Shown here one piece after another: positions 2,656 through 27,282 of a DNA stretch of 64,000 nucleotides. The stretch is from Actinophytocola xinjiangensis (GTDB taxonomy: Bacteria; Actinomycetota; Actinomycetes; Mycobacteriales; Pseudonocardiaceae), in contig NZ_MSIF01000025.1 of assembly GCF_001921215.1 (NCBI RefSeq), positions 62,001-126,000 on the forward strand, written 5' to 3'. The notes beneath the pieces are model-generated. The model was not told the origin of the DNA, did not search any database, and saw nothing but the letters and a program-made list of their open reading frames with translations. The translations under genes and the position numbers were made by a program. Numbering within the stretch: position 1 is the first letter of the stretch; the number at the start of each line of letters is the position of its first letter.

Positions 2656-3681
2656 TCAGTCGACCGGAACGGCCTCGATGATCGAGAACGCGGTCTCCGT
2701 GGGGACCACCCTGGTGAGCTTGTAGCCCGCCTGCGCGAACACCTCGGCGTACTGCTCCTCGGTGCGCAGGAAGCCGGCCATCGTCACCAGCATCATGATG
2801 TCGAAGTACTTCACGAACCGGCCGATCCCCGGACGCAGCAACAGTTCCGCCGCCGCGATCTTGGCGTTCGGCGAGGCCGCCCGGCAGTTCTTCAGCACCG
2901 ACAGCAGCTTCTCGTCGTTCCACGAGTGGGTGATCTGCTTGCAGACGTAGAGGTCCACACCGGAGGGAACGGACTCGAAGAAGTCACCGGGGTGGAACTC
3001 CAGCCGGTTGCCCTCCACCAGCGGCGCCAGGTCGGGGCGGGCCTTGGCCTGCTCGATCACCGGCGGCAGGTCGGCCAGCACACCGCGCTTGACCGTCGGG
3101 TAGGCGCTGAGGATGTTCGCCAGGTAGGTCCCGGTGCCGCCGCCGAGGTCGGAGATCACGTCCGCCTCGCCGAACTCCGGGTAGCCGGCCACGATCGACG
3201 GGCCGAGCGTCTGGGAGAACTCGTTCATGGCCATGTTGAAGTCGCGGCCGGCGGTCGGGTTCTGTCCCATGTAGGCCCACAGCGTCATGCCGTAGGCCTC
3301 CTCGAAGGCGGCCTTGCCGGTCTTCACGCTGTGGCTGGTCTTGGCGTAGGACCGCCACAGCCACTCCGACGCGGCGAACTGCGACATGATGAACTGCGAG
3401 TTCGGCACACCCTTGCGCAGCAGCGTCGAGCGCGGCGTGTTGGCGAACACGCCGGGCTCGACCTCGTCGAAGATCCCGTCCTCGTTGAGGATCTGCAACG
3501 CGGACTGCAACGCGTGCTGGTGCGCGCCGGTCTTGTCGGCCAGCTCGGCGATGCCCAGCGGACCGTCGGCCAGCAGGTCGGCGACCCGCAGCTCGGCGGC
3601 GATGCCCAGGCACTGGCCGGAGGTGGGGAACATCAGGTCGAGCAGGGCGTGGACGTCCTCGATGGTCGGTTCGGTGCTCAT
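2656..3681 (-). CDS. SAM-dependent O-methyltransferase (acetylserotonin OMT-like)
   Basis: A 341-residue class I O-methyltransferase of the type found in aromatic polyketide pathways (PF00891). It has an N-terminal dimerisation/winged-helix domain (about 10-100), the SAM-binding motif DLGGGTG at 178-184 and a catalytic-base motif THSWNDE with His252. It should methylate a phenolic hydroxyl of the pathway product. An in-frame upstream extension exists, but the ATG at 3681 is preceded by GAGGAGCGAG and begins with the normal family N-terminus. It is 28 bases downstream of the RCC1 gene and is probably co-transcribed with it. Confidence 0.92.
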   Translation of the reverse strand: MSTEPTIEDVHALLDLMFPTSGQCLGIAAELRVADLLADGPLGIAELADKTGAHQHALQSALQILNEDGIFDEVEPGVFANTPRSTLLRKGVPNSQFIMSQFAASEWLWRSYAKTSHSVKTGKAAFEEAYGMTLWAYMGQNPTAGRDFNMAMNEFSQTLGPSIVAGYPEFGEADVISDLGGGTGTYLANILSAYPTVKRGVLADLPPVIEQAKARPDLAPLVEGNRLEFHPGDFFESVPSGVDLYVCKQITHSWNDEKLLSVLKNCRAASPNAKIAAAELLLRPGIGRFVKYFDIMMLVTMAGFLRTEEQYAEVFAQAGYKLTRVVPTETAFSIIEAVPVD

Positions 3682-6291: not shown

Positions 6292-6489
6292 GTGCCGAAG
6301 GTGATCGTGGATCGCGACCGTTGCTGCGGCGCCGGCCTGTGCGCCCAGGCCCTGCCGCAGGTGTTCGACCAGGGCGAGGACGCCGTCGTCGTGCTGCTGG
6401 AGGAGAACCCACCGGCGGAGTTGGTCGCGCCGCTGGCGGACGTGGCGTTCGCCTGCCCCTCCGGCGCGATCCGGGTGGTCGAGCAGTAA
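6292..6489 (+). CDS. Ferredoxin for the adjacent P450
   Basis: A 65-residue small ferredoxin with the Cys pattern CCGAGLC near the N-terminus and CPSGAI near the C-terminus, as in the 3Fe-4S/4Fe-4S ferredoxins that serve actinomycete P450s. The GTG at 6292 begins one base after the P450 stop codon, so the pair is almost certainly translated from one mRNA and works together. No ferredoxin reductase is visible, so a housekeeping reductase probably completes the chain. Confidence 0.9.
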   Translation: MPKVIVDRDRCCGAGLCAQALPQVFDQGEDAVVVLLEENPPAELVAPLADVAFACPSGAIRVVEQ

Positions 6490-11354: not shown

Positions 11355-13007
11355 CTACTTCCTGTCCTTGAGACCGAAGGCGAGCATCACCACGCCCTTG
11401 TCGGTCGGGTAGAACGGGTAGTAGCCGGCCATCACGTACACCATGCCGTTCGCGATGACCGCGCCGCCGTTGCCGGACAGGGCACTGCCCCGGCCGGGGA
11501 CGCCGTTGACGCCCTGGAAGTCGCGGACCGCGTCGTAGGTGTAGAGGATCTCACCGGTCCTCGACGAGAAGACCCGGAACTTGCCGTCGCCGCTGCCCTC
11601 GTAGATCAGGCCCGGGGTGCCGCTGGGCGCCGGGGTGAAGATCGCCGTGCAGATGTCCGGGTGCGGGGCGGCGCCGCCGGTCTCGCAGCCGTCCGCGGGA
11701 TGCGGTGTCTGCCAGACGATCCTGCCGTTGGTGGCGTCCAACTTGAACAGTTTCGCCGGGTGGTCGTACCAGGTCGCCCCGTAGAGGTAGCGGCCGTCGA
11801 ACACGCTGCCCCACTGCACGCCGACGCCGCCGAGCGGGCCGGGCGCGACCTCGGTCTTCCACACGACGCGGCCGGAGCGGGCGTCGAAGGCGTAGAACAT
11901 GCCGTTCTTCTGCCCGATCGTGACCAGTGTCCGGCCCCGGACCTCGATGACGTTGGCCGACGCGCCGAAGTCGGCGTCCAGCGCGTAGGTGCCCTTGCCG
12001 GGGCAGTACTCGCCGGGATCGTCGTCCTCGCAGGCGGTGGTGTAGGTGTCGGGGAAGGTCATCCGGTTCTTCCAGCGGACCTTGCCGGTGTCCATGCTCA
12101 GCGCGATGACGCTGTTGATGTCACCTTCCATACCGGTGGTGTTCTGCCCGGTACCGACGAAGATCGTGCGGGTGCGCAGGTCGGCGACCGGGCTGGACCA
12201 GACGCTGCCGCCGGACGGGGCGAACTTCGTCGCGCCGCTGGGCCAGGTGCCGACCGGCTCGGCCGGGCGCAGGGTGTAGTAGTTCCAGATCACCTTGCCG
12301 GTGCGGGTGTCCAGCGCGAGGACCTGACCGCGGTGCTTGCAGCACGGGTAGTTCTGGTCGCGGACGTACCCTGCCTCCAAAGTGGACACCCCGACGAACA
12401 GCCGGTTCCCGACGACCAGCGGGGAGCTGGTCATCACCGAGTTCGGCTGGGTGCTGGCCCGGCTGATCCACGCGACCTCGCCGGTCTCGCGGTACAGCGC
12501 GAACACCCGCCCGGTCGAGTCCCCGAAGTAGACCTTGTTCCCGGCGACGGCCGCGCCGTCCCGGATCCCGTTGGGCGACCCGTCCGGCAACGGCCCGGTC
12601 ACGGCGGCCGCGTCGTAGCTCCAGCGGGTCTTGCCGCTGCGGGCGTCGAGCGCGACGAACTTCCCGTCCGGCCCGCCGACGTAGAGCACGCCGTCGGCCA
12701 CCGCCGGCTGACTACCGACCCGCGAGTACGGCACGTTGCCGAACGTGTAGGCCCATTTCAGTTCCAGCTGGTCGACGTTCCGCGGGGTGATCGTGCGCTC
12801 GTTGGCGTTGTAGCGCGTACCCGAGGTGTTGAGCGACCAGGTTGGCCAGTCCGATGAGCGCCCGTGGTGCTGGGAACCGGCGTCGCCGACCGCGGCCGTC
12901 GGCCCGGACGCGGCGGCGACCCCTAACGCGGCGAACGTGACAACGGAGAGCCCGGCGACGAACGCCCTGGCCCTTCGCCGTACGCTCCTGGGGCTGCGTA
13001 ACTGCAC
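11355..13007 (-). CDS. Secreted PQQ-dependent dehydrogenase-like beta-propeller
   Basis: A 550-residue exported protein with an N-terminal signal (RRRARAFVAGLSVVTFAALG) and successive PQQ/PVA-dehydrogenase propeller repeats such as GKFVALDARSGKTRWSY, GQVLALDTRTGKVIWNYY and GMFYAFDARSGRVVWKT. A vicinal Cys pair (CCKHRG) is present, as in PQQ alcohol dehydrogenases, and paired Cys occur in DGCETGG and DICTAIF. There is no haem CxxCH motif, so it resembles polyvinyl-alcohol dehydrogenase without a cytochrome domain. The GTG at 13007 has GGGAGG upstream and starts the signal peptide; the 148-codon in-frame extension covers the neighbouring methyltransferase gene and is rejected. Confidence 0.85.
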   Translation of the reverse strand: MQLRSPRSVRRRARAFVAGLSVVTFAALGVAAASGPTAAVGDAGSQHHGRSSDWPTWSLNTSGTRYNANERTITPRNVDQLELKWAYTFGNVPYSRVGSQPAVADGVLYVGGPDGKFVALDARSGKTRWSYDAAAVTGPLPDGSPNGIRDGAAVAGNKVYFGDSTGRVFALYRETGEVAWISRASTQPNSVMTSSPLVVGNRLFVGVSTLEAGYVRDQNYPCCKHRGQVLALDTRTGKVIWNYYTLRPAEPVGTWPSGATKFAPSGGSVWSSPVADLRTRTIFVGTGQNTTGMEGDINSVIALSMDTGKVRWKNRMTFPDTYTTACEDDDPGEYCPGKGTYALDADFGASANVIEVRGRTLVTIGQKNGMFYAFDARSGRVVWKTEVAPGPLGGVGVQWGSVFDGRYLYGATWYDHPAKLFKLDATNGRIVWQTPHPADGCETGGAAPHPDICTAIFTPAPSGTPGLIYEGSGDGKFRVFSSRTGEILYTYDAVRDFQGVNGVPGRGSALSGNGGAVIANGMVYVMAGYYPFYPTDKGVVMLAFGLKDRK

Positions 13008-13875: not shown

Positions 13876-13912
13876 GTCCGTGCACTTCAGCTCAACGGAC
13901 GTGAGCGGGGCG

Positions 13913-14937: not shown

Positions 14938-15019
14938 GCGTCGCCTCCTCTGTTCGCGTGTCGCGACCGATCCTCGTTCCGCGTGCCACGGCCATCAACG
15001 ACGAGATTCGGCATGATTG

Positions 15020-15034
15020 TTCAGCCATGCTGAA
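15020..15034. promoter_or_regulatory. Palindrome, candidate LysR operator
   Basis: TTCAGCCATGCTGAA is a perfect 15-base inverted repeat matching the T-N11-A LysR box. It lies 11 bases before the LysR start, between the two divergent units. Confidence 0.6.
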
Positions 15035-15044
15035 TAATGGGGGC

Positions 15045-15896: not shown

Positions 15897-15903
15897 CCCC
15901 GGA

Positions 15904-16116
15904 TCACGTCTCCCACTCCAGCTCGACCGGCGTGAGCCCCTGGTAACGCCGCACCGCGTCCTCGACGGACCGGTGGACGGTGACCGTGCTCCTGCCGTCC
16001 CCGTCACGGCGGAAGGTGACGACGTCGCGCCCGGACGCCAGCTCGATGTCCAGCCCGTAGGCAACGACCCGGTCGCGGTCCTCGGCGCTGACCAGGGCGA
16101 AAGGTATGGCGGTCAT
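15904..16116 (-). CDS. Small hypothetical protein (70 aa)
   Basis: A 70-residue protein with no recognised family. It alternates short beta-like segments (VVAYGLDIELASG, DVVTFRRDGDGRSTVTVH) and ends in a helix (SVEDAVRRYQGL). No signal peptide or membrane segment is present. Its ATG overlaps the stop of the upstream gene (ATGA), so it is the third gene of a tightly coupled leftward operon that starts at 16939 and faces an XRE regulator. Confidence 0.7.
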   Translation of the reverse strand: MTAIPFALVSAEDRDRVVAYGLDIELASGRDVVTFRRDGDGRSTVTVHRSVEDAVRRYQGLTPVELEWET

Positions 16117-16547
16117 GACAGTTCTCCAGGTTTCGTCTCGAAAGGCCAGTTGTTCGCGATCTCGTCACCGAGCCAGCGGTACAGAACGTCGTCGTCGATC
16201 TCGCCCGGTAACTCCAGATCGAGACAACAACCGGCCGGCACCGGCCCGGCCACCACCGCCACCGCGACACCGCCGTCCTCACCGAATCCGGTTGTCACAA
16301 TGTGAAACCCGTCGCCGGCCGGTCCGCGCCAGGCCCAGGTGTTTCCGCGAACCAACGTCCGTCGCCACTGGACGATCCCGGCGGCCAACACCGCGGGATC
16401 GGAATTCCGCAGCCGCACCAACGCCGACACCACCCCACCGGCATCAACCCCGATCCGCACCGACGACATCTCCACATCGACCGGGCACCGGACGAACAAC
16501 TCCCGAACCGCCGCCAACGGCCCCAGGAACCGCTGCGACCCGCTCAC
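16113..16547 (-). CDS. Hypothetical protein, second gene of XRE-divergent operon
   Basis: A 144-residue protein without recognised domains, probably cytoplasmic and mixed alpha/beta, with conserved-looking Trp-rich segments (VQWRRTLVRGNTWAWRGP) and an acidic C-terminal helix (DDDVLYRWLGDEIANNW). The GTG start at 16547 overlaps the preceding stop codon (GTGA) and has GGGAG upstream, which is why longer in-frame starts are rejected. It overlaps the 70-aa gene in the same way, so the three products are probably made in step and may act together. Confidence 0.68.
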   Translation of the reverse strand: MSGSQRFLGPLAAVRELFVRCPVDVEMSSVRIGVDAGGVVSALVRLRNSDPAVLAAGIVQWRRTLVRGNTWAWRGPAGDGFHIVTTGFGEDGGVAVAVVAGPVPAGCCLDLELPGEIDDDVLYRWLGDEIANNWPFETKPGELS

Positions 16548-16939
16548 CGGAAACACTCCCGCCGGCTCACCAGAACCGGAACCCGCGCACCGGAAACCCC
16601 TGTCCCAGCGGGCGCGTCCACCAACGGCGGCAACCACTCGTCGGGCGTGGGAAGCGTCAGCAGCGCCCGAAGAATCCACACCATGCTCACGTTCGCCGCA
16701 CCCGCGTTGCACCCGTACCACCAGTGCACCCGCCCCGGCGCGAACACATCCTCACCATCGCCGCCCGGCGTCCGATAGGCATGCGTCCCCCACTCGTCGG
16801 TGAGCACGACGACGTCCGAAACACCGCCCCACCGCAGGACCCCGGCCAACACCTCCGGCCCGTACCGATCCGGCCGGAACTGGTGCCACAGATACCCACG
16901 CCGCCCCGCCTCCGCGATGAGCGCGTCGAACTCGTTCAT
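16544..16939 (-). CDS. Hypothetical protein, first gene of XRE-divergent operon
   Basis: A 131-residue protein with distinctive blocks YLWHQFRPDRYGPEVLAGVL, VVVLTDEWGTHAYRTP and VHWWYGCNA, followed by WILRALLTLPTPDEWLPPL. I recall similar proteins beside XRE regulators in Pseudonocardiaceae, but no function is known to me. The ATG at 16939 lies 96 bases from the divergent XRE start, with the 19-base palindrome between them, so the XRE protein is the likely regulator. Confidence 0.72.
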   Translation of the reverse strand: MNEFDALIAEAGRRGYLWHQFRPDRYGPEVLAGVLRWGGVSDVVVLTDEWGTHAYRTPGGDGEDVFAPGRVHWWYGCNAGAANVSMVWILRALLTLPTPDEWLPPLVDAPAGTGVSGARVPVLVSRRECFR

Positions 16940-16999
16940 GAACGTCTCGCCTCCCCGCACGCTGTCGACAGGAACCGTAAGAGCGAGGTCGTCCGCCTT

Positions 17000-17018
17000 C
17001 CCCAACAATGTGTTGGGG
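17000..17018. promoter_or_regulatory. 19-bp perfect palindrome, candidate XRE operator
   Basis: CCCCAACAATGTGTTGGGG has 8-base arms and a 3-base centre. It sits between the divergent unknown operon and the XRE gene and ends four bases before the XRE gene's -10 box, so a bound dimer would block that promoter. Confidence 0.65.
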
Positions 17019-17022
17019 TGGT

Positions 17023-17028
17023 TACGCT
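17023..17028 (+). promoter_or_regulatory. -10 box of leaderless XRE gene
   Basis: TACGCT lies exactly seven bases before the GTG at 17036, so transcription would start at the start codon. No ribosome-binding site is present. Confidence 0.5.
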
Positions 17029-17035
17029 GGGATTT

Positions 17036-18274
17036 GTGAGGCTGAACGACGAAGCGACCGTCGGCGAACGGATCGCGTACCACCGCCGGCGTCGGGGGAT
17101 GACGCAGGAAGTGTTGTGTGGCCTGGTCGGGGGTCGCTCGACCGAGTGGTTGCGTCAGATCGAGAACGGCAAGCGCGAGGTGGACAGACTGTCCACCATC
17201 GTGGCTGTAGCCGAGGCGTTGCGGATCAGTCCGTCGGCGTTGTTGCCGGGGCCGTTCCGAACGCGTTCGACGCGCGCTGATTCGTTGGGGACCGCGCCGA
17301 ACTCGGTGCCGGAGATCGAGGCGGCGATGTTCCGGTACGACGGTGTCGCCGGGCTGGTCGGTGTCCCGGACCGGATATCGGTGTCGCCGGACGATCTTCG
17401 GCGGCGGACGGCGACGGCGTTCGTGTGCTCGCAGACCGAGCGGTGGTCGGAGATGGCGCCGCTCGTTCCCGACCTGATCGCCGACGCCTGGCACCTGGTG
17501 CGCGACGCGACCACCGACGAGCAACGCCGGGCGGCCCATGCGGCGCAGGCGCTGGTCTACCGGGTCACCTCCGGCATGCTCGACCGCCTCGGCGAGACCC
17601 ACCTGCCCTGGGTGGCCGCCGAACGTTCCATGCACGCGGCCGAGTTGTCCGGTGACCGGCTGCTGGTCGCCGGCGGGGCGTGGCGGATGGCGGTCGTCCT
17701 GCGGCACGCGGGGCGGCTGGTCGAGTCGACGGACGCGCCGGTCGCCGCCGCCGACGCGTTGCGGCCGCACCTCGACTCCCCGCAGGCCTACAGTGTGTAC
17801 GGCTCGCTGATGCTCAAGGGCGCCGTTGGCGCGGCGACGCTCGGTGACCACGCCAGCGCCCACGACTACCTGAACGAGGCATCCCGGGCGGCGACCGTCA
17901 CCGGCGACCGCAACGACCACTGGCTCGCCTTCGGCCCGACGAACGTCGCCATCCACCGCGTGTGGCTCTCCCTGGAACTCGGCGACCCCACCCGGGCCAC
18001 CGACCAGGCCACCTCGGTCCGCCACGACCGGCTACCGCCGGAACTGGCCGAACGCCGGGCCTCCCACCTGATCACCGTCGCCTGGGCCAACTACCTGCGC
18101 CGCCGGGACCGCGAGGCGGTCACCGTCCTGAGATCGGCCCGCTCCGCCGCCCCGGAACAGCTCATCTTCACCCGCCGGGTCCACGCGATGTTGCGCGGCA
18201 TCACCCGCCGCGCCCCCCGCTCCCTCCAATCCGACGTCCGCGACCTGACCGAGTTCGTCGGAATGCCCACCTGA
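17036..18274 (+). CDS. XRE-family regulator with TPR-like C-terminal region
   Basis: A 412-residue protein: an N-terminal Cro/CI helix-turn-helix (residues about 6-62; VGERIAYHRRRRGMTQEVL and STEWLRQIENGKREVD) followed by a long helical, TPR-like region rich in Ala. This layout is typical of actinomycete XRE regulators that sense a ligand or partner through the helical domain. The GTG start is chosen for the HTH position and the leaderless -10 box; a long in-frame upstream extension is non-coding. Thirteen bases after its stop lies a small gene for a protein with an internally duplicated motif. Confidence 0.9.
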   Translation: MRLNDEATVGERIAYHRRRRGMTQEVLCGLVGGRSTEWLRQIENGKREVDRLSTIVAVAEALRISPSALLPGPFRTRSTRADSLGTAPNSVPEIEAAMFRYDGVAGLVGVPDRISVSPDDLRRRTATAFVCSQTERWSEMAPLVPDLIADAWHLVRDATTDEQRRAAHAAQALVYRVTSGMLDRLGETHLPWVAAERSMHAAELSGDRLLVAGGAWRMAVVLRHAGRLVESTDAPVAAADALRPHLDSPQAYSVYGSLMLKGAVGAATLGDHASAHDYLNEASRAATVTGDRNDHWLAFGPTNVAIHRVWLSLELGDPTRATDQATSVRHDRLPPELAERRASHLITVAWANYLRRRDREAVTVLRSARSAAPEQLIFTRRVHAMLRGITRRAPRSLQSDVRDLTEFVGMPT

Positions 18275-18286
18275 CAAAGGAGAACA

Positions 18287-18646
18287 GTGCGGTCCGAACG
18301 AGGTCGAGTCTTCCGTGAAGCGTGGATCTCCGGCGTGCGCAAGCACTTTCCCGGTGAACCCAAGCCGGGTTACGTCGCCCCCTGGGACGAGACGCCCGAC
18401 TGGGAACGCGAGGCGGCGACGGCGGTCCACAACCAGGTGGCGGCCTTCGTCGCCGCGACCGGTGGGGCAACTGCGAAGCTGAGTCGCGAGCAGAAGGGGC
18501 GCTTCGTCGCGATCTGCTGGGTCGGGCAGATCCACAAGCACTTCGCCGACCCGAAACCCGGTTACGTCGCCGACTGGGCCGATCTGCCGGAATGGCAACG
18601 CGAAACCGACGCCGACATCTTCGAACACATCGAACAGGGTTTGTGA
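18287..18646 (+). CDS. Small protein with tandemly duplicated KHF-KPGYV-W motif
   Basis: A 119-residue protein consisting of two copies of one motif (residues about 6-51 and 71-116). Each copy has GR-x-F, then KHF, KPGYV, W, P-x-W and RE in the same order, joined by an Ala-rich linker. The second copy, ADWADLPEWQRETDADIFEHIE, resembles the C-terminal tail I recall from many actinobacterial hypothetical proteins. The function is unknown. GTG at 18287 is preceded by AAAGGAGA at ideal spacing. It is the downstream partner of the XRE regulator. Confidence 0.75.
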   Translation: MRSERGRVFREAWISGVRKHFPGEPKPGYVAPWDETPDWEREAATAVHNQVAAFVAATGGATAKLSREQKGRFVAICWVGQIHKHFADPKPGYVADWADLPEWQRETDADIFEHIEQGL

Positions 18647-18650
18647 ACGC

Positions 18651-18815
18651 GCGATCCGCGAACACCCCGGCTTCACCGCCGACGAGTTGGCGACGACGCT
18701 GCTTCGAGACACCACACGGCTACACCCTCATCGACAAGCACGACACCGGGGCGCGCGTGCGCGACCTGCTCACCCAGGCGCGGGTCGTCCGCGAACTCGT
18801 TGTCAAGCACCCAAG
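18651..18815 (+). pseudogene. Possible decayed coding fragment
   Basis: Two short protein-like stretches lie in different frames: AIREHPGFTADELATTLLRD from 18651 and YTLIDKHDTGARVRDLLTQA from about 18722. Neither has a start signal. The look is of a frameshifted remnant of a helical, DNA-binding-like protein, but no parent family is identified. Confidence 0.28.
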
Positions 18816-18834
18816 GCGGACGGGGGCCGGAGGC

Positions 18835-19332
18835 TCAGCCGGTGAGGATGAGGGGCGTGGAGCCGAAACGGTTCGCGAGGAGGTCGTCGAGCAGGTCAGG
18901 CAGTTCGGCGGACAGGAGCTTGTCCGTGCACTGCCGCAACGCGTCCGCCGGCCACCAGCGACGTTCGATCAGCCCGACCTTCTCGTTCTCGGTAGGCCTG
19001 AGCGCGACTTGCGGCGCGGTGCTGGGGGTGCGACCGAGGAACACGTGCTCGACGCGGTGGTGGTCGCGGCCCTGGTACCGGAAGCGGGATTCGCGCACCC
19101 ACAACTCCCGGCCCAGAGAGGGGAGCATGATCCCGGTCTCCTCGGCGACTTCGCGGCGGGCCGCGGCCTGGAGGTCCTCGCCGTCGTCCACGCCGCCGCC
19201 GGGCAGCTCCCACCAGTGGTGACCGGGGTCGGCGGGGTCGAGGGCGTGGATGAGCAGCACGCGGTCGTCGGGGTCCAGCAGCAGGACACGGGCGCCGATG
19301 CGGGGCGTAACGGTGCTGGTCGAGTCGGTCAT
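18835..19332 (-). CDS. Nudix hydrolase
   Basis: A 165-residue Nudix protein that hydrolyses a nucleoside diphosphate linked to another moiety. The Nudix box is complete: GGGVDDGEDLQAAARREVAEE followed by TGI, with the REVAEE metal-binding core. The N-terminal strand RIGARVLLLDPDDRVLLIHA is typical. The start ATG at 19332 has only a weak upstream site. It is probably housekeeping or sanitising and not part of the polyketide pathway; it follows the PKS operon terminator in the same direction. Confidence 0.92.
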   Translation of the reverse strand: MTDSTSTVTPRIGARVLLLDPDDRVLLIHALDPADPGHHWWELPGGGVDDGEDLQAAARREVAEETGIMLPSLGRELWVRESRFRYQGRDHHRVEHVFLGRTPSTAPQVALRPTENEKVGLIERRWWPADALRQCTDKLLSAELPDLLDDLLANRFGSTPLILTG

Positions 19333-19545: not shown

Positions 19546-20013
19546 TCAGACGGTGAAGATGGCGGCGATGTAGCCGACCACCGCGATGATGGCGCCGTAG
19601 GTGCGGACCTGGTGGGCGATGTGCCAGATGTGCCGCTTCTTCGCCCACTGCTCGTCCTCGACGTTCTCGATGCTCCATTTCTCGATCTGGCGCCAGATGG
19701 GGCGGTTGACGCCTTCGGAGGCGAGGCCGACGATGAGCATGCCGACCGAGCCGATGATGAACAGGGCGGCCGAGCCGCCGGAGGTGGTGGCGAAGGCGGC
19801 GATGACGCCGACGCCGGCGGCGATGACGCCGTTCCACACGGCGATGGGGTGGAACACGTGCATGTCGATCCGTTGGCAGGTGCTGACGTACTGGCTGTAC
19901 GGCAGGCCGTTGAGCAGCGGCAGGATCGACAGTTTCATGATCCAGAGCGTGCCGAGCTGGATGCCGGACGCGGCCAGCACCCAGACGCTCATGATGGTGA
20001 GGGCGGTTGTCAT
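19546..20013 (-). CDS. DUF1772 membrane protein, anthrone oxygenase-like
   Basis: A 155-residue membrane protein with four hydrophobic segments (about 3-25, 57-76, 82-102, 134-153) and the block HPIAVWNGVIAAG. It fits the DUF1772 family, which includes the fungal HypC noranthrone oxidase. As the last gene of the PKS operon, 13 bases after the ABM monooxygenase, it probably helps oxidise an anthrone-like intermediate to a quinone (inference from family and position). The family assignment is by pattern and is moderately sure. Confidence 0.75.
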   Translation of the reverse strand: MTTALTIMSVWVLAASGIQLGTLWIMKLSILPLLNGLPYSQYVSTCQRIDMHVFHPIAVWNGVIAAGVGVIAAFATTSGGSAALFIIGSVGMLIVGLASEGVNRPIWRQIEKWSIENVEDEQWAKKRHIWHIAHQVRTYGAIIAVVGYIAAIFTV

Positions 20014-20026
20014 CTTCTCTCCCGGG

Positions 20027-20353
20027 TCAGCTGGCGCGGCGTAGAGCCTTGTTGGCCGTCTCTTCGCGGATCTCGAACTTGATCGACTTCGCCTCGGTCA
20101 TGCAGGCGCGCATCGGGCCGGCCAAGTCGCGGTGGCCGGGACTCCGCTCCCACTCCACGAAGTGCTCCAGGGATTCCCACTCGCTGGTGATCAGCCACTG
20201 CTCGGGGTCCGCCGGGGACTGGCAGACCTGGTCCAGCACGTGGCCGGGCACCCCGCCGGCGACCTGGTACCGGATCCGCTCGTAGGCCGCCAGGAAACGC
20301 TCCACGTTCTCCGCCGGCACGCGGACCAGGAACACGATCCGTGCCCTACTCAT
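20027..20353 (-). CDS. ABM-family (antibiotic biosynthesis) monooxygenase
   Basis: A 108-residue ferredoxin-like alpha-beta protein of the ABM family, which contains cofactor-free quinone-forming monooxygenases such as ActVA-ORF6 and TcmH. The visible blocks are ARIVFLVRVPAENVERFLAA, the SEWESLEHFVEWERSPGH region carrying the conserved Trp, and a C-terminal strand. Its ATG at 20353 overlaps the chain-length-factor stop (ATGA), so it is coupled to the PKS core. It most likely oxygenates the cyclised aromatic intermediate. Confidence 0.88.
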   Translation of the reverse strand: MSRARIVFLVRVPAENVERFLAAYERIRYQVAGGVPGHVLDQVCQSPADPEQWLITSEWESLEHFVEWERSPGHRDLAGPMRACMTEAKSIKFEIREETANKALRRAS

Positions 20354-21582
20354 GACGCCTCCTCGTACCGGCCCACCACGAGCGCGGTGTTGTATCCGTC
20401 GTAACCCCGTGCGTTCACCACCGCCAGCGACGTGCGTCGCGCGGTCGGCTCGGTCACGAAGTTCAGTTCGCAGCCGGGCGCGACCTCGGTCAGGCCGTGG
20501 GTGGCCGGCAGGACGTCGTAGCGCATCGCCTGCAACGCGGTCGCCACGTCCAGCGCCGCGCCGCCCTGGTAGAGGCGGCCCAGCTGGCCCTTCTGGGTGG
20601 TGACCGGCACCTGGTCGCCGAACACCTCGCGGATGGCGGCCGCCTCGACCCGGTCGCACTCCGGCACGCCGACGGCGTCCGGGAACACGACGTCCACATC
20701 GGACGCCGCGCGGTCGGCGCGTTCCAGGGCGACCCGCAGGGCGCGGGCCACCTGGGCCTGGTCACCGCCGTCGCCGGGGCGGGTGGCGCGGCCGTCGTGG
20801 GTGGCCGACCAGCCCAGCACCTCGCCGTAGATGTCGGCGCCGCGTTCGCGCGCGTGGTCGAGGTCCTCGACCAGCAGCACCGCCCCGCCCTCGCCGACGA
20901 CGTAGCCCGCCGCGCCGGGCGCGAAGGGCCGGTAGGCGGTCGCCGGGTCGGTGCCGGTCGACAGTCTCCTGGTCGACAGCTGGCAGGTCAGGGCGTAGGG
21001 CGACAGCGGGCCCTCGGTGCCGCCGGCCAGCACGACCTTCGTGCCGCGGCGGATCGTCCTGGCCGCCTGGGCGAAGCTGTCCAGGCCACCGGCGCTCTCC
21101 GCCACCAGCACGCTGCACTGGCCCTTGAGCTGGTGCAGGATCGAGATCTGGCCGACGCTCGCCGCGTAGAACCAGGCGATCGACTGGTACACGCTCACCG
21201 CGCCGTCCGGCTCCGACCACAGCGACTGCAGCTCGCCCTGACCGAACTCGTTGCCGCCCGAGGACGACGCCAGCGCGACGGCCGTCTCGTACGGGTCCAT
21301 CGTGGACAGGTCGACGGCCGAGTCGGACAGCGCCTCCTGGGCGGCGGCGAAACCGTGCCAGGTCCAGCGGTCGGTGGCGACCTTGAGCCGGGGGTTGACG
21401 AACTCGTCCGGGTCGAAGTCGGGGACCTCGCCGGCCAGTGTCACCGGGTAGCTCGACGGGTCGAACCGGGAGATCCGGCCCAGCCGCGACGCACCGTCCA
21501 TGATGGACTTCCAGTGCGCGTCGGCGCCGACACCCGACGGCGCGACGACCCCGAGGCCCGTGATCACCGCACGAGCTGTCAT
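20350..21582 (-). CDS. Type II PKS chain-length factor (KS-beta)
   Basis: A 410-residue KS-beta subunit that pairs with KS-alpha and sets chain length. The thiolase fold is evident (AVITGLGVVAPSGVG, RPFAPGAAGYVVGEGGAVLLVEDL), but the KS active-site Cys is absent. At its place the sequence is VAESAGGLDS, with Ser163. Most chain-length factors have Gln here (AEQAGG), so this variant is unusual. The KS catalytic histidines are also missing, as expected. The start overlaps the KS-alpha stop (ATGA), so an equimolar complex should be made. Confidence 0.95.
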   Translation of the reverse strand: MTARAVITGLGVVAPSGVGADAHWKSIMDGASRLGRISRFDPSSYPVTLAGEVPDFDPDEFVNPRLKVATDRWTWHGFAAAQEALSDSAVDLSTMDPYETAVALASSSGGNEFGQGELQSLWSEPDGAVSVYQSIAWFYAASVGQISILHQLKGQCSVLVAESAGGLDSFAQAARTIRRGTKVVLAGGTEGPLSPYALTCQLSTRRLSTGTDPATAYRPFAPGAAGYVVGEGGAVLLVEDLDHARERGADIYGEVLGWSATHDGRATRPGDGGDQAQVARALRVALERADRAASDVDVVFPDAVGVPECDRVEAAAIREVFGDQVPVTTQKGQLGRLYQGGAALDVATALQAMRYDVLPATHGLTEVAPGCELNFVTEPTARRTSLAVVNARGYDGYNTALVVGRYEEAS

Positions 21583-22973
21583 GACGCCTCCTTCAAGCGG
21601 CTGAACACCATCGCCGACTGGAACCCGCCGAACCCGCTGCCCACCGACAGCGCCACGTCGACCTTGTGCTCGCGGGCGGTGTTGGGCGTGTAGTCCAGGT
21701 CGCACTCCGGGTCGCGCTGCGCCCAGTTCGCGGTCGGCGCGACCGTGTTGCGGTCGATGGTCAGCGCGCACGCGGCCATCTCGATCGCGCCGATCGCGCC
21801 GAGCGAATGCCCGATCATCGACTTGATCGAGCTGACCGGTGTGCGGTACGCGTGGTCGCCGAGCGCCTTCTTGAACGCCGCCGTCTCGTGCCGGTCGTTC
21901 TGCTTGGTGCCCGAGCCGTGCGCGCAGATGTAGTCCACGTCGGTCGGGTTGGTGCGGCCCTGGTCGAGCGACACCCGGATCGCCTCGGCCATCTCCAGCC
22001 CGTCGGGGCGCAGCCCGGTCATGTGGAAACCGTTGGAGCGGCTGGCGTACCCGGTGACCTCGCAGTAGATCTTCGCGCCCCGGGCCAGGGCGTGGCCGAG
22101 CTCCTCCAGGATCAGCACCGCGCCGCCCTCACCCATGACGAAACCCTTGCGGGTGGCGTCGAACGGGCGGGAGGCGTGCTCGGGGTCGTCGTTCTCCGGC
22201 GTGGTGGCCTTGATCGCGTCGAACGAGGACACGGTGACCGGCGAGATCGGGCTGTCCGACGCGCCGGCGATGATCACGTCGGCCTCGCCGTCCTGCACCA
22301 GGTGCCAGGCGTAGCCGATGGCGTCGATGCCCGAGGTGCAGCCGGTGGACACGACCTGGGTCGGGCCGTGGGTGCCGTAGCGGTGCGCGATGTCGGCGGC
22401 CAGCGAGGAGGGCACCAGCGCCTGGTAGAGGAACGGGCCGGCGTAGGTGTGGTCGACCAGCCAGTCCCGGCCGGTGTTGGACACCGCGACGTACTCGTCC
22501 TCCAGCGCCATCGTGCCGCCGACGGCCGAGCCCATGACCACGCCGGTGTTGTCCAGCGTCTTCTCGTCCAGCTCCAGGCCGGAGTCGGCCAGCGCCTCAC
22601 CGGCGCAGGCGAGTCCGAACTGGACGTACCGGTCGGCCCGCCGGATCTCCTGGGCGCTCAGCCCGGCGGCCACCGGGTCGAAGTCGGCCTCGGCGGCCAC
22701 CCGCGACCGGAACTTGGTGGCGTCGAAGAAACTGATCTTCCTGGTGGCCGTCTTCCCGGCCGTCAGGGTCGACCAGAACCCCTCACGGGTCACGCCACCG
22801 GGGGCGACAACGCCGACCCCGGTGACCACGACCCGGCGGTGTTTGATGGTCGCTCCCGCGACTCCGCTCAGACGCCGCCTTCCCTCCTCACGTGCTCGGC
22901 GCTGGCGCGCCTGCGCGCGTTCGTCAGTCCAGGCGGCGTCCGCTCCGTCGCTCCCGCTCCGGTGTCCGCTCAT
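21579..22973 (-). CDS. Type II PKS ketosynthase alpha subunit
   Basis: A 464-residue KS-alpha that condenses malonyl units on the ACP. The catalytic triad is complete: Cys212 in VVSTGCTSGID, His352 in AHGSGTKQND and His389 in GHSLGAIG. The thiolase core begins at about residue 46 (RRVVVTGVGVVAPGG), so the protein carries a 44-residue Arg/Ala-rich N-terminal extension that most KS-alpha proteins lack. No better start exists downstream. The ATG overlaps the preceding cyclase stop (ATGA). The partner is the chain-length factor encoded next. Confidence 0.96.
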   Translation of the reverse strand: MSGHRSGSDGADAAWTDERAQARQRRAREEGRRRLSGVAGATIKHRRVVVTGVGVVAPGGVTREGFWSTLTAGKTATRKISFFDATKFRSRVAAEADFDPVAAGLSAQEIRRADRYVQFGLACAGEALADSGLELDEKTLDNTGVVMGSAVGGTMALEDEYVAVSNTGRDWLVDHTYAGPFLYQALVPSSLAADIAHRYGTHGPTQVVSTGCTSGIDAIGYAWHLVQDGEADVIIAGASDSPISPVTVSSFDAIKATTPENDDPEHASRPFDATRKGFVMGEGGAVLILEELGHALARGAKIYCEVTGYASRSNGFHMTGLRPDGLEMAEAIRVSLDQGRTNPTDVDYICAHGSGTKQNDRHETAAFKKALGDHAYRTPVSSIKSMIGHSLGAIGAIEMAACALTIDRNTVAPTANWAQRDPECDLDYTPNTAREHKVDVALSVGSGFGGFQSAMVFSRLKEAS

Positions 22974-23863
22974 GCCGCCTTCGTCTCCCTCTCCGCGAGG
23001 ATCCGCGCGGCGTACTCGGCGGCCTCCTCGCGGGTCTCGGTGTCCACGTGGCCCAGCTCCGGCCGGGGCGCGAGCGGACCGAGGTGGAACACCGCGAAGA
23101 CCTCGCCGCCGCCGACGTTGCGCAGGCGGTGGCGGGTGTCCTTGGGCACCAGGATCGCCGTGCCGGCCGGCACCGGGACGATCTCGCCGTCGATGTCGGC
23201 CTCCAGCTCACCGGAGATGCAGAAGACGAACTCCTCGCTGTACGGGTGGTAGTGCTCGGCGATCGCCTCGCCGGCCTTGAGGGTGGCGCCGCCCATGAAA
23301 CCCGAGGTCGAGCCGACCGTGCGCGGGGAGAGCAGCGTCTGGATCGTGCCGCCCCGCCGGTGGTCTTGCGGGCAGTCGTGGAGCGAGACCGTGCGCTGGG
23401 CGCTGGCCCGCCGCGAGTGGTACGCCTTCTCGATCTTGTCCTTGATGATCTGCAGCTGCACCTTGGAGTTCTTGTTGATGTTGTTGACCATCCACTCGTC
23501 GTCCACCGGCGCGGTGTCCTTCATGTGGAAGTCCTGCACCCAGCGCAGGACGATGCCGCCCTCGACCTCCTCGTAGAACCATTCGAGGATCATGAACTCG
23601 AACGGCCCGGTCTCGATGCGGTGCGACTTCGTGCGCTTCTCGTCGAGGAACTTCGTCCGCTCGCTGACCCAGCTCCACACCTGCCCGTTGTCGTCCGGGT
23701 GCATCGTGAGCCGGAAGGTGATCGTGTCGCCCTCCTGGCTCACCACCTCGGTCGCGGCGTACTCGGTGAACAGGTTGGGCCAGTTCGGCACGTCGTTGGT
23801 GATGTCCCAGACGAGCTGGAACGGCGCCTCGATGCGGATCTGGTTGTCGGTGTGCCCAGCCAT
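22970..23863 (-). CDS. Aromatase/cyclase (TcmN N-domain type) fused to cupin cyclase (TcmJ type)
   Basis: A 297-residue two-domain protein. Residues 1-150 are a SRPBCC polyketide aromatase/cyclase with the TcmN pocket residues at the same numbers: W28, Y35, W63, R69, R82 and W95. These enzymes fold the first rings of the poly-beta-ketone. Residues about 172-275 are a cupin with ligand pattern EHYHPYSEEF (H204, H206, E210) and H245, as in TcmJ/RemF/WhiE-ORFII proteins. The two are usually separate genes. GGGGAAGA precedes the ATG. It lies between ACP and KS-alpha. Confidence 0.93.
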   Translation of the reverse strand: MAGHTDNQIRIEAPFQLVWDITNDVPNWPNLFTEYAATEVVSQEGDTITFRLTMHPDDNGQVWSWVSERTKFLDEKRTKSHRIETGPFEFMILEWFYEEVEGGIVLRWVQDFHMKDTAPVDDEWMVNNINKNSKVQLQIIKDKIEKAYHSRRASAQRTVSLHDCPQDHRRGGTIQTLLSPRTVGSTSGFMGGATLKAGEAIAEHYHPYSEEFVFCISGELEADIDGEIVPVPAGTAILVPKDTRHRLRNVGGGEVFAVFHLGPLAPRPELGHVDTETREEAAEYAARILAERETKAA

Positions 23864-23878
23864 CTCGAATCTTCCCCT

Positions 23879-24124
23879 TTACGCTGCCTGCTCGTTGGCG
23901 TTGTTGATGAACTCGACGATCTCGCCGACGTTGAGGCTGCCGCTCTCGTCGGGGATCTCGACCCCGTACTGCTTGGTGATCACGATCTGGAGTTCCAGGA
24001 CGGCCAGGGAGTCCAGGCCGAGGTCCTCCAGCGAGTTCTCCGGCGTGTCGGCCAGCGTCCGGGGGGCCAGGCCGACCTTCTTCACCAGGATCGTCTCGAT
24101 GTCGTCGAACGACACGTTCGCCAT
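23879..24124 (-). CDS. Type II PKS acyl carrier protein
   Basis: An 81-residue acyl carrier protein carrying the growing chain on a phosphopantetheine arm attached to Ser39 in the motif LGLDSL (35-40). The acidic helix II and the length are normal. The ATG at 24124 has AAGGAG upstream at somewhat long spacing. It sits 13 bases after the TcmI-type cyclase stop and 15 bases before the cyclase-cupin start. No phosphopantetheinyl transferase is present in the window, so one must be encoded elsewhere. Confidence 0.96.
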   Translation of the reverse strand: MANVSFDDIETILVKKVGLAPRTLADTPENSLEDLGLDSLAVLELQIVITKQYGVEIPDESGSLNVGEIVEFINNANEQAA

Positions 24125-24137
24125 CGCGGTGGGCTCC

Positions 24138-24455
24138 TTATTTCTCGTAGGTGTAGAAGCAACGAGCCTGGGCATCCTTGGGCGAACGCCAGGTCGACAG
24201 GTACGGGGAGATGAACTCGCTGAGCTTCTCGGAGATCCCGACGAACTCCGGGTGTCCCTTGATGCGGTTGATCGTTTCCTGGCCGGGCTCGGCGGTCTCC
24301 AGCAGCTGGATGTAGACATCGCCGAGCGTCCACAGTGACCGGTGCTCGACGCCGGCGATCCCCGGCAGCTCCGTCGCGTCGGAGTCGGCCCAGATCTGCG
24401 CGACCTTGTCCTGCGAGTCGGGCATGATGCGAGCGACGATGAGTGATCGGTGCAT
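24138..24455 (-). CDS. TcmI-family polyketide cyclase
   Basis: A 105-residue single-domain cyclase of the TcmI family (PF04673), which closes a later ring of polyphenolic polyketides. It begins MHRSLIVARIMPDSQDKVAQ and ends with the family-typical RCFYTYEK. The ATG at 24455 is chosen because it begins at the conserved first strand, with GGAGAAT upstream; an in-frame extension of 23 codons lacks family similarity. It is the first gene of the leftward PKS operon, so its upstream region (24456-24600) must hold the operon promoter. Confidence 0.93.
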   Translation of the reverse strand: MHRSLIVARIMPDSQDKVAQIWADSDATELPGIAGVEHRSLWTLGDVYIQLLETAEPGQETINRIKGHPEFVGISEKLSEFISPYLSTWRSPKDAQARCFYTYEK

Positions 24456-24600
24456 GCCATTCTCCAACTTCGACAGCGCGGGCTTCTTATCGCAAGAATG
24501 CGTGTTCACCGGTCCCAGGGGCATGAGTCGACTGTCCCGGTGGGCTGGGCAGAAGGCCCGGTTCCACCATTTTTCGAGTGCCCGTCGACCGAAACGAACG

Positions 24601-24630
24601 ATGCCGGTCCGAACAATGTCGGACCGGCAT
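24601..24630. terminator. Terminator, 12-bp perfect stem
   Basis: ATGCCGGTCCGA and TCGGACCGGCAT pair perfectly around a 6-base loop. It lies 22 bases past the stop of the leftward MDR gene and should isolate it from the PKS operon promoter. Confidence 0.8.
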
Positions 24631-24652
24631 CAGGGAAATGTCAGCGAGGTGT

Positions 24653-25711
24653 TCAGCGGCAGTCCAGGACGAGCTTTCCGGTGATGCCGCGCTCGGCCCG
24701 GGCGAGCGCCTCTGGCGCCTGGGCCAGCGGCAGCGTGGAGATCTCCCGGGGGGCGATCTTGTCTGCGGCCAGCAGGTTCAGGACCTGCGCCAGGTCCTCG
24801 CGGTAGGCGTGCGGCTGCGACTTCTCCAGCGACCAGGCGTTGTAGAAGCCGGTGCGCCGGCCGTCCGGACGCAGCTTGGGCAGCACCAGCCCGCCGAGGA
24901 AACCGACCGCGCCGATCGCCATGTTGCGCCTGCCGTCACGCAGCACGTCGTTCTGGCCGTAGGCGACCAGCCGCCCGCCCCGGGCCAGCACGCTGTAGGA
25001 CCGCCAGAAGTGCGGCCCGCCGACCGCGTCGAACGCCGCGTCCACGGTGCCGTTGCGGTGGTAGGCGGTGGTGGCGTTGAGCTGGCTGCCCTCGTCGGCG
25101 GTGCCGCGCACGATGTTGGCGAAGTCCTCGTGGCGGTAGTCGATGGCGACCGCGCCGTGACGGCGCAGCAGCGGCAGGTTCGCCGCCGAGGCCGTGCCGA
25201 ACACCGTCACCCCGCCGATGTGCTCGGCGAGCTGCAGGAACGCCAGGCCGACGCCGCCGGACGCGCCGTGCACCAGGATCCGCTGCCCGGAGGTGACCTT
25301 CGCGACCCGGTGCAGCATCTGGTGGGCGATGAAGTAGTTGAGCGACACGGCGGCGACCCCGATCGGGTCGACGCCCTCGGGCACTGGCACGAGGCGCGCG
25401 GCCGGCAGGTTGATGGCGGTCGCGTAGCCGCCGGACACCACCAGCGCCGCCACCCGCTGGCCGACCTCCAGACCGGTCACGCCGGCGCCGAGCGACTCGA
25501 CGACGCCGACCAGGTCACAGCCGGGGGTGTAGGGCGCCTTGGGTCCGCCGGGGACAACGCCCCGCTGGAAGAGCACGTCCCCGTAGGAGACTCCGGCGGC
25601 CTCGACCCGCACCCGCGCGTGACCGGCGGGCGGTGCCTCCAGGTCCGTCTCCCGGACTTCGAGGCAGTCGGTCGGCTGCCGGTTGACGGCGAACACCTGG
25701 GTCGTATGCAT
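24653..25711 (-). CDS. MDR-family NAD(P)H:quinone oxidoreductase-like enzyme
   Basis: A 352-residue zinc-free medium-chain dehydrogenase/reductase. The GroES-like domain is seen in AGVSYGDVLFQRG and PYTPGCDLVGVVESLG, and the nucleotide-binding motif in VHGASGGVGLAFLQLAE. Such enzymes reduce quinones or enones with NADPH. Position next to the PKS operon suggests a tailoring reductase (inference). It is transcribed away from the SnoaL-like gene across 180 bases containing an AT-rich patch (about 25728-25760) unlike its surroundings, probably a shared regulatory region. Confidence 0.9.
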   Translation of the reverse strand: MHTTQVFAVNRQPTDCLEVRETDLEAPPAGHARVRVEAAGVSYGDVLFQRGVVPGGPKAPYTPGCDLVGVVESLGAGVTGLEVGQRVAALVVSGGYATAINLPAARLVPVPEGVDPIGVAAVSLNYFIAHQMLHRVAKVTSGQRILVHGASGGVGLAFLQLAEHIGGVTVFGTASAANLPLLRRHGAVAIDYRHEDFANIVRGTADEGSQLNATTAYHRNGTVDAAFDAVGGPHFWRSYSVLARGGRLVAYGQNDVLRDGRRNMAIGAVGFLGGLVLPKLRPDGRRTGFYNAWSLEKSQPHAYREDLAQVLNLLAADKIAPREISTLPLAQAPEALARAERGITGKLVLDCR

Positions 25712-25891
25712 CTTCGGCCTCCGTCAACGGAATACAGGTATGTCAACTGAACAATTTAATGGAGGTCGGCACCCGGTTGACCCGGGAACTTGTCACCGCG
25801 AAGTCGGGACCGCCGTCGGGTGGCGCCGGGAAAAGCGCGTGTGACGGTGGACTGGACTGTGTATTCGGCTGTTCATGCGCGGAGGTCGTAG

Positions 25892-26371
25892 ATGTCCGAA
25901 GAGAACATCGAACTGGTCCGGTTCGTGACCGAAGAAGGGCTCAACAAGGGGAACCTCGGATTCATCAACGACGTTTTCGCCGACGACTACGAGGTGCACA
26001 CCGCCGGCCTGCAACTGCCGAAGGGGCCGACGGCGTTCAAGATGGCCGTCGAGTTCTGGAAGCGGGCCTTCCCGGACTTCACCTGCGGCATCCAGGAGAT
26101 GTTCGCCGCCGGTGACCTGGTCGGCCTGCGTTTCCGCACCACCGGCACGCACACCGGGCCGCTGATGTGGATGCCGCCCACCCACGGCACGTTCGTCGTC
26201 GAGGGCGTCGACCTGCACCGGGTGCGCGACGGCAAGGTCACCGAGTCGTGGATCAGCGACGACTTCCCGAGGATCCTGTTCGAGCTGGGGATCGTCGAGG
26301 AGCCCAAGCCCCCGGTCGGCGCCGGCGGCCCGCCCCAGGGCGTGGCGATCCCGGAAGCGAAAGCAAGCTGA
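25892..26371 (+). CDS. SnoaL-like ester cyclase/polyketide cyclase family protein
   Basis: A 159-residue SnoaL-fold protein (cone-shaped alpha+beta barrel, related to NTF2). It begins NIELVRFVTEEGLNKGN and contains the block FPDFTCGIQEMFAAGDLV followed by DLHRVRDGKVTESWISDDF, both characteristic. In anthracycline pathways SnoaL closes the last ring by aldol condensation; related small proteins hydroxylate or isomerise. The ATG has GCGGAGG upstream. It is coupled (TGATG) to the dehydrogenase gene and forms a rightward side operon of the PKS region. Confidence 0.88.
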   Translation: MSEENIELVRFVTEEGLNKGNLGFINDVFADDYEVHTAGLQLPKGPTAFKMAVEFWKRAFPDFTCGIQEMFAAGDLVGLRFRTTGTHTGPLMWMPPTHGTFVVEGVDLHRVRDGKVTESWISDDFPRILFELGIVEEPKPPVGAGGPPQGVAIPEAKAS

Positions 26372-27282
26372 TGGCCGCCAAGATCGCGTTCGTCGGCCTC
26401 GGCGCGATGGGCGGGGGCATGGTCTCGCGCCTGCTCGCGTCCGGGGCGAACGTCACGGTCTACAACCGCACCCGCTCCCGGGGCGAGGCCCTGGCCGCCG
26501 AGGGCGCGGTCCTGGCGACGACCCCGGCGGCGGCCGCGCAGGGCGCCGACGTGGTGTTCCTGTCGCTGGCGACCAGCGAGGTCGTCGAGCGGCTGCTGTT
26601 CGGCGAGCACGGCGTGGTCGAGGGCCTGCCGGAGGGCGCGATCGTGGCGGACCTGTCGACCGTGGCGCCCGACTTCGCCGTCGGGTTGCAGAAGCGGCTG
26701 GCCGGCACCGGCCACCGGGCGCTGGACGCGTGCGTGCTCGGCAACGCCCAGCACGCCAAGGACGGCGAACTGCGGTTCATGATCGGCGGCGCGGCCGAGG
26801 ACGTCGCGGCCCTGCGGCCGGCGATCGAGCCGCTGGCCAAGGAGGTCGTGCATCTGGGCCGCGGCGGCATGGGCGCCACGGCCAAGCTGGCGTTGAACCT
26901 GCTGATGGGCGTCCAGATGCAGGCACTGGTCGAGGCGGTCGCGTTCGGCGAGCGGGCCGGCCTGGACCGGGGGACGCTGATCCGGCTGATCGCCGCCGGC
27001 GGGTACAGCAGCCCGATGATGAAGTTCAAGGCCGGGGTGATGGCCAGGCGCGCGTTCGAGAAGCCGGACTTCCGCCTGAAGCTGATGCGCAAGGACCTCG
27101 GCCTGGTCCTCGACGAGACCCAGCGCCTCGGCGTCCCCATGCCGACCACGGCCGCCAGCCACGACTGGCTCACCGCCGCGCAGAACCGCGGCCTCGGCGA
27201 ACACGACGTCGCGGCGCTGCTGGCGTACATGGAGACGGTGTCCGGTCTCGATGACTATCCGTGGCCGGGTGAGGCCGCGTAG
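26371..27282 (+). CDS. NAD(P)-dependent beta-hydroxyacid dehydrogenase-like protein
   Basis: A 303-residue member of the 3-hydroxyisobutyrate dehydrogenase/6-phosphogluconate dehydrogenase-like family. The N-terminal Rossmann motif is VGLGAMGGG (residues 8-16), followed by TVYNRTRSR. The second-domain block MGATAKLALNLLMG carries the expected catalytic Lys. The usual substrate motif DAPVSGG is altered to DACVLGN, so the substrate is probably not a standard hydroxyacid. It overlaps the SnoaL-like gene by one base, implying a common pathway role. Confidence 0.9.
   Translation: MAAKIAFVGLGAMGGGMVSRLLASGANVTVYNRTRSRGEALAAEGAVLATTPAAAAQGADVVFLSLATSEVVERLLFGEHGVVEGLPEGAIVADLSTVAPDFAVGLQKRLAGTGHRALDACVLGNAQHAKDGELRFMIGGAAEDVAALRPAIEPLAKEVVHLGRGGMGATAKLALNLLMGVQMQALVEAVAFGERAGLDRGTLIRLIAAGGYSSPMMKFKAGVMARRAFEKPDFRLKLMRKDLGLVLDETQRLGVPMPTTAASHDWLTAAQNRGLGEHDVAALLAYMETVSGLDDYPWPGEAA

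Follow-up and report, generated by a model that had tools for sequence, protein, structure and literature searches.

The stretch of DNA analysed here, referred to as the window, is 64,000 nt of contig NZ_MSIF01000025.1 (positions 62,001 to 126,000, forward strand) from the 9.5 Mb genome of Actinophytocola xinjiangensis (assembly GCF_001921215.1). It carries a compact type II polyketide synthase (PKS) gene set in which an aromatase/cyclase and a cupin-type cyclase are joined in one protein. Seven core genes, all on the minus strand, run from position 24455 down to 19546. The first encodes a TcmI-type cyclase of 105 amino acids (aa) that starts MHRSL (24138..24455; PF04673, E 5e-35 on a longer frame that begins at 24524), with 8is2 and TcmI (1tuw) as solved relatives. 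It is followed by an acyl carrier protein (ACP) gene (23879..24124; PF00550), whose product is 88-95% identical to the ACPs of three other Actinophytocola clusters, and by the gene of the 297 aa aromatase/cyclase-cupin fusion protein (22970..23863), in which Pfam finds Polyketide_cyc2 and Cupin_2. The ketosynthase (KS) alpha gene (21579..22973; PF00109/PF02801; 1tqy_A, E 6e-164) encodes the TGCTSG motif, and next to it is the chain-length factor (CLF, or KS-beta; 20350..21582; ketoacyl-synt; 1tqy_B, E 4e-99). The last two genes encode an ABM-fold protein resembling the N-terminal part of a whiE-locus protein (20027..20353; PF03992; 9lmm, E 3.5e-26; 9lmn, E 1.3e-22) and a small helical, probably membrane protein with a weak likeness to DUF1772/anthrone oxygenases (19546..20013; mean model confidence, pLDDT, 82.7).

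A KS-alpha with its active-site Cys, a KS-beta and an ACP, which define a type II PKS, are thus all present, together with TcmN-, TcmJ- and TcmI-type cyclases, the trio that characterises the pentangular/tetracenomycin group according to PMC4383371; the TcmJ assignment comes from Cupin_2 and from aligning the domain with cupins in other type II clusters. These are the families named in the original prediction, which was made from the DNA letters alone, and Pfam returns Cyclase_polyket, PP-binding, Polyketide_cyc2 with Cupin_2, ketoacyl-synt (twice) and ABM; the DUF1772 label is the exception. Most of the genes had also been said to overlap by ATGA, but such overlaps are found at only three of the six junctions (fusion/KS, KS/CLF and CLF/ABM), the remaining three being gaps of 13-15 nt.

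In the fusion protein, residues 1-150 (23414..23863, minus strand) form an aromatase/cyclase domain of the WhiE-ORFVI/TcmN type. Foldseek ranks WhiE ORFVI first (3tl1, 54% identity, TMt 0.92) and TcmN next (3tvq, 47%), and the sequence search likewise gives a better score to WhiE ORFVI (E 5e-58) than to TcmN (E 4e-46). A linker of approximately residues 151-168 (23360..23413) leads to a TcmJ/WhiE-II-like cupin domain (23030..23359; PF07883, E 5e-16, and alignments) that has H204, H206, E210 and H245. A single uninterrupted frame runs through both domains, in the window as in the three further Actinophytocola genomes with the gene; no stop, named beforehand as an observation that would tell against the fusion, lies between them. 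The closest named relatives of the fusion protein are from Actinophytocola xanthii (91% identity), A. gossypii (87%) and an Actinophytocola metagenome-assembled genome (MAG; 86%).

The HMMER alignment to TcmN (3tvq) is without gaps through residue 150, and thus W28, Y35, W63, R69, R82 and W95, read by eye, fall at the TcmN numbers. With the four cupin residues, all ten residues that had been singled out are present. Among 29 aligned fusions (of 31 fused rows in the data set), nine of the ten do not vary at all and E210 hardly does, with Q in one locus (L070). R69 is kept in 29 of 29; according to the available text of PMC12664062, the R69A change in TcmN abolishes C9-C14 closure. With its modelled helix-grip fold and R69, the domain is predicted to be a C9-C14 aromatase/cyclase. 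For the cupin, a profile search matched two YxaG sequences, one quercetinase-variant sequence and SLL1358 at E 1e-6, and a single-sequence search matched 2gu9 and 3h50 (a tetracenomycin polyketide synthesis protein) only at E 0.006; RemF was not among the solved relatives found by either search.

Genome contigs were scanned with an alignment of seven fusions, and the best 80 of 326 relatives were kept. Both domains are in one frame without a stop in 28 of these loci, aromatase and cupin genes are adjacent yet separate in four (from Lentzea, Actinokineospora, Frankia and Protofrankia), and 48 have no same-strand pair within 1500 nt; one locus (L154) gave a senseless negative gap and was kept out of the fused count. 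Because full-length matches to the fused query rank higher, 28 of 80 is not a frequency estimate. The fused form is also found in Amycolatopsis, Nonomuraea, Microbispora, Planomonospora, Actinoplanes, Plantactinospora, Actinomadura, Spongiactinospora, Actinacidiphila and Streptomyces. Among genomes sampled evenly from larger groups, with mostly six candidates scored per genome, near-full-length matches occur in 3 of 397 for the order and 3 of 394 for the class, and both counts include the window; the fusion is thus rare at both levels. The search for the same fusion elsewhere, which the original prediction had proposed, therefore shows that it is not a mark of this one cluster, and its uniqueness to the Actinophytocola cluster is ruled out by its recurrence in many genera. 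The fusion is real, intact, conserved and recurrent, and the joining of the same two enzymes in many actinobacteria is not a one-off oddity. Nonomuraea gerenzanensis may also have it: one tblastn piece covers residues 1-275, with the frame unchecked, and is entered in no count.

An aromatase-cupin fusion is not described in the available texts of PMC4383371, PMC6689052 and PMC12664062, the subscription literature being mostly outside this coverage. The main text of PMC12664062, in its available form, nowhere uses the word cupin, and the terms cupin and fusion were not found in PMC3462128. Aromatase/cyclase domains joined to another domain are familiar from TcmN, BenH and the didomain StfQ/BexL. 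The partner there is an O-methyltransferase (from the PDB molecule name), an ABM domain (PMC6689052, as far as available) or a second aromatase, whereas the partner in the window is a cupin. Besides BenH, SchA/CurD fusions are reported in the accessible part of PMC6689052, with the suggestion that fusion follows functional dependence; by analogy, this suggestion fits the aromatase-cupin case.

A tree of KS plus CLF was made from 95 rows, each row being one locus, and a more careful tree from 49 rows chosen among them. The trees omit L135, L136, L137 and L139, which duplicate L056, L057, L055 and L067; a tree of the fused domains, with L150 omitted as well, holds 91 rows. The 95-row tree has a 34-row clade, mostly with the whiE gene order, that includes a second cluster of the window's own genome; this clade is named whiE-like by gene order, with no Streptomyces coelicolor KS/CLF placed in the tree. 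The window falls in a supported 40-row clade. Four of its rows are of or near the frankiamicin type, nine form a smaller clade that includes the window, and 26 are fused without exception; the last row, L087, comes from a MAG, is unfused and sits on a long branch next to these 26. Within the 9-row clade the Actinophytocola and Amycolatopsis taiwanensis rows are fused, and Lentzea, Actinokineospora and two Micromonospora-type rows (the genus being guessed from the genome group) are unfused. In the 49-row tree the fused label changes three times (bootstrap 5-95% range 3-3); the fused rows form one clade in 0% of 200 bootstrap trees, and the approximately unbiased (AU) test rejects a single fused clade on the KS/CLF tree (p 3e-44). 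The domain tree also needs three changes, and the AU test again rejects a single fused clade (p 0.006).

The fusion may fix the stoichiometry of the two cyclases and channel the nascent chain from one to the other, as the original prediction proposed. It may instead be functionally neutral, the two domains acting independently like beads on a string. The weakly modelled linker and the uncertain orientation of the domains are consistent with neutrality, as is the persistence of the split form in close kin. However, if the fusions are independent they arose at least three times, and one clade is fused in all 26 of its rows, although these rows were picked by likeness to the fused query, so that split members may be hidden. 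Neutrality is therefore somewhat unlikely, while keeping an appreciable chance.

Concerning origin, the fusion probably arose from two neighbouring genes, as one of at least three such events in the family. The number of residues between two fixed positions is 32 in four of four Actinophytocola proteins, 33 in A. taiwanensis and 25 in 24 of 24 aligned rows of the large fused clade (24 of its 26 rows being aligned), and the existence of three kinds of linker speaks for neighbouring genes having fused repeatedly. Where the genes are split, the aromatase tail and the cupin leader can both be recognised, and the linkers of the fusions hold remnants resembling the cupin's own leader; that of A. taiwanensis contains a close copy of the cupin leader found in the neighbouring Lentzea and Actinokineospora rows. 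A single ancient fusion, with later fission in Lentzea/Actinokineospora and again in the Micromonospora-type clusters, would cost the same three changes; repeated fusion is thus likely rather than certain, and this equality must be set against it. Ancient fusion is nevertheless unlikely: the outgroup rows are not aromatase-cupin fusions, the linkers are of distinct kinds, and the split aromatase and cupin genes overlap by 4 nt in some relatives (L142, L147 and L159), as expected before a fusion. L159 is itself on a Pseudonocardia alni plasmid, pPaSha1, typed as mobilizable, where the type II PKS with its overlapping aromatase and cupin genes lies among insertion sequences.

The chain length was considered from the CLF. 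Positions 109/112/116 of the actinorhodin CLF, which we take to be a chain-length gate, correspond to N/G/L in four of four Actinophytocola rows and in five of five of their nearest kin. The frankiamicin-type rows have N/G/I (2 of 4), V/G/I (1 of 4) and N/S/I (1 of 4), the large fused clade N/G/I (24 of 26), the whiE-like clade G/G/L (31 of 34), a further clade T/G/M (14 of 14) and actinorhodin F/T/F. The small gate residues argue against an actinorhodin-like C16 chain. The KS/CLF tree that had been proposed for predicting chain length gives the placement with frankiamicin-type rows, and the gate residues leave C20 versus C24 undecided; a long chain, perhaps C24 and unreduced, is what we infer.

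The core gene order TcmI-ACP-TcmN-TcmJ-KS-CLF is the same as in the frankiamicin (fkm) cluster of Frankia sp. EAN1pec, as given in the available text of PMC4383371. The fkm cluster differs in having separate aromatase and cupin genes, a ketoreductase and two ABM genes after the CLF, and no DUF1772-like gene in Table 2 of that text. In one of the frankiamicin-type rows (L066) the genes between the histidine kinase and the ketoreductase and ABM genes, these included, follow the published fkm order, as judged mostly by eye, with the ketoreductase confirmed as a short-chain dehydrogenase/reductase (SDR). Clusters of Lentzea nigeriaca, Amycolatopsis taiwanensis and Actinokineospora enzanensis share the order ACP-aromatase-cupin-KS-CLF-ABM-DUF1772-like with the window, and are fused only in A. 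taiwanensis. These also carry acetyl-CoA carboxylase genes (by Pfam in the Actinokineospora locus, L060, and by eye in the others), of which none was seen by eye in the window gene list.

Thus the locus is, with reasonable though not full confidence, a type II PKS operon for an unreduced, probably long-chain aromatic polyketide, with a tethered aromatase-cupin that came from fusion of neighbouring genes. KS-alpha/CLF and the ACP would build a poly-beta-ketone, which the aromatase domain would fold at C9-C14, aromatising the first rings. The cupin, held to the aromatase by the short linker, would close the next ring and TcmI the last, and the whiE-like ABM protein would guide or oxidise. The product class had been predicted as tetracenomycin-like or pentangular and non-reduced. 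The KS/CLF placement with Frankia frankiamicin-type clusters and the lack of a ketoreductase agree with parts of this, but the cluster lacks both the FkmD-type ketoreductase and the ABM pair that pentangular clusters carry. By Pfam no SDR is found among the ten genes of 19546-27282, the other window genes being family-scanned in part, and an SDR-like gene (by eye) lies far off at 54542-55324. A single ABM gene is present in the cluster, without the adjacent PdmH/PdmI-type pair of the pentangular subclass.

A tetracenomycin-type C20 pathway would account for the three-cyclase set and the lack of a ketoreductase. In the accessible text of PMC4383371, moreover, a ketoreductase and an ABM pair are found in all of its pentangular clusters, and the ABM pair is absent from tetracenomycin-class clusters. 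Against such a pathway are the gene order and the KS/CLF clade, which are those of frankiamicin-type clusters (with no TCM KS/CLF placed), and the higher score of the aromatase to WhiE than to TcmN, and it is quite improbable. A second spore-pigment (whiE) system, with which the window shares a WhiE-type aromatase, a cupin, a TcmI-type cyclase and an ABM protein nearest to 9lmm and the whiE-locus protein 9lmn, deserves slightly less credit still, since the KS/CLF lies outside the whiE-like clade to which the genome's other cluster belongs, the order is not the cupin-KS-CLF-ACP-aromatase of the unfused whiE cluster, and no SchA/CurD domain is found among the ten genes scanned. An identity as spore pigment from aromatase likeness alone was set aside after the KS/CLF tree.

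Several points weigh against the operon being read as a long-chain pathway with a tethered aromatase-cupin born of repeated fusion. The fusion protein model, with a mean pLDDT of 91.4 and its weakest block in the linker (residues 151-160, pLDDT 67), has a predicted TM score (pTM) of 0.64, which does not fix the arrangement of the two domains. The frankiamicin link rests on gene order, by which the type was assigned, and not on reference sequences, and inside the 40-row clade the branch that would order the window group, the large fused clade and the frankiamicin-type rows has low support (63/28 in the 49-row tree). In the domain tree the starred branches force only two changes, and the long branch L087 meets the window group, as the tool warned. 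Every group compared except actinorhodin has small gate residues, and the comparison, made without a C20 reference, does not separate C20 from C24. Lastly, the window CLF has Ser where actinorhodin has the Gln of VAEQAG; the main groups of the 40-row clade have Ser, Gly, Ala or Asp at this position, and 54 of the 56 remaining rows have Glu or Gln.

Type II cyclases may be free enzymes or parts of a complex that surrounds the growing chain, and possible complexes are discussed in the available parts of PMC4383371 and PMC6689052. The fusion is a natural clue that both cyclases act next to each other, and if the same pair was indeed joined covalently more than once, this would be evidence from evolution that the aromatase and the cupin are in contact. 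The fusions are ready natural constructs for testing this contact, with split natural homologues as controls, and the cluster is a small cloning target. More speculatively, and with considerable doubt, the aromatase and cupin may act as a single catalytic unit throughout this branch of type II PKSs, passing the first-ring product directly to the cupin, with the contact fixed at least three times; in Actinophytocola the unit would work without a ketoreductase and with whiE-like ABM, SnoaL-like and PQQ-propeller partners, giving a scaffold unlike those of frankiamicin, tetracenomycin and spore pigment.

The ABM protein had been called a monooxygenase. Its ABM family stands (PF03992), but the activity is doubtful: the nearest solved relatives, 9lmm and 9lmn, include the "42.8 kDa protein in whiE locus", and its 15 matches at E up to 1 do not include an entry with the name ActVA-Orf6. 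ABM-type proteins may guard fidelity, with oxidation not required, according to the accessible part of PMC6689052. The DUF1772 label of the small membrane protein proved weak. PF08592 matches one of seven orthologues at E 6e-4 and does not match the window protein, and FUN14 matches four of the seven equally weakly. A Foldseek search of the PDB had no match reaching E 0.001, and a profile gave matches only at E 0.31 or worse. Over 119 aligned columns the protein shares 30% identity with a protein annotated as DUF1772 in a type II cluster. On a Streptomyces plasmid an annotated DUF1772 gene (L160:8474-8932), with PF08592 above the cut-off, directly follows an aromatase gene; that type II cluster also has a ketoreductase, two ABM genes and sugar genes. 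It and L159 are the two annotated type II clusters on plasmid records, neither with a product named.

The locus extends beyond the seven genes. Beside the core are genes for a zinc-type quinone oxidoreductase of the medium-chain dehydrogenase/reductase (MDR) type (24653..25711, minus strand; Pfam), a SnoaL-like protein (25892..26371, plus strand; PF07366) and a 3-hydroxyisobutyrate-dehydrogenase-like NAD enzyme (26371..27282, plus strand; Pfam). All three adjoin the core in four of four Actinophytocola clusters, the block being inverted in A. gossypii. Six Actinophytocola genomes were compared: the fusion protein is matched in four and, at E 1e-10, in neither of the other two, the search covering the fusion protein and not KS. 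The MDR gene has a 78-84% orthologue in the three other fusion-bearing genomes and merely 40-44% paralogues in the two without the fusion gene; the SnoaL-like gene has a 90-91% orthologue in the former and no match at E 1e-10 in the latter. Close orthologues (at least 62%) of the MDR and SnoaL-like proteins, a PQQ-type beta-propeller protein (11355..13007, minus strand) and an O-methyltransferase (2656..3681, minus strand; PF00891) are found in four of four genomes with the fusion gene and in neither of the two without it, where some of these four are left only as 38-50% relatives. By this co-occurrence the O-methyltransferase is a possible tailoring enzyme. The PQQ gene adjoins the DUF1772-like gene in three relatives; in the window about 6 kb (13126-19332), absent at this place in those relatives, lies between it and the PKS core.

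A cytochrome P450 (5082..6290, plus strand; PF00067), with a ferredoxin beside it (6292..6489, plus strand; Fer4 models), is another possible tailoring enzyme, and lies beside the cluster in L056 and L057. Its link to the cluster is weak, because one of the genomes that lack the fusion gene also has a 40% relative close to the corresponding border. A neighbouring ABC permease is found in six of six Actinophytocola genomes; this block is thus conserved without the cluster, and the right cluster border is placed before it. The second type II PKS of the same genome (contig C12, about 180-184 kb; L141) is unfused with whiE-like gene order, and a paralogue of the PQQ propeller lies about 13 kb from it.

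Aromatases are also found in one open reading frame with another kind of partner. At L120:7382-8566 and L131:10001-11197 a WhiE/TcmN-type aromatase shares its frame with an SDR ketoreductase-like domain (394 and 398 aa; SDR by eye), and on two Streptomyces plasmids (H50 and H51) an annotated SDR protein lies under the aromatase match.

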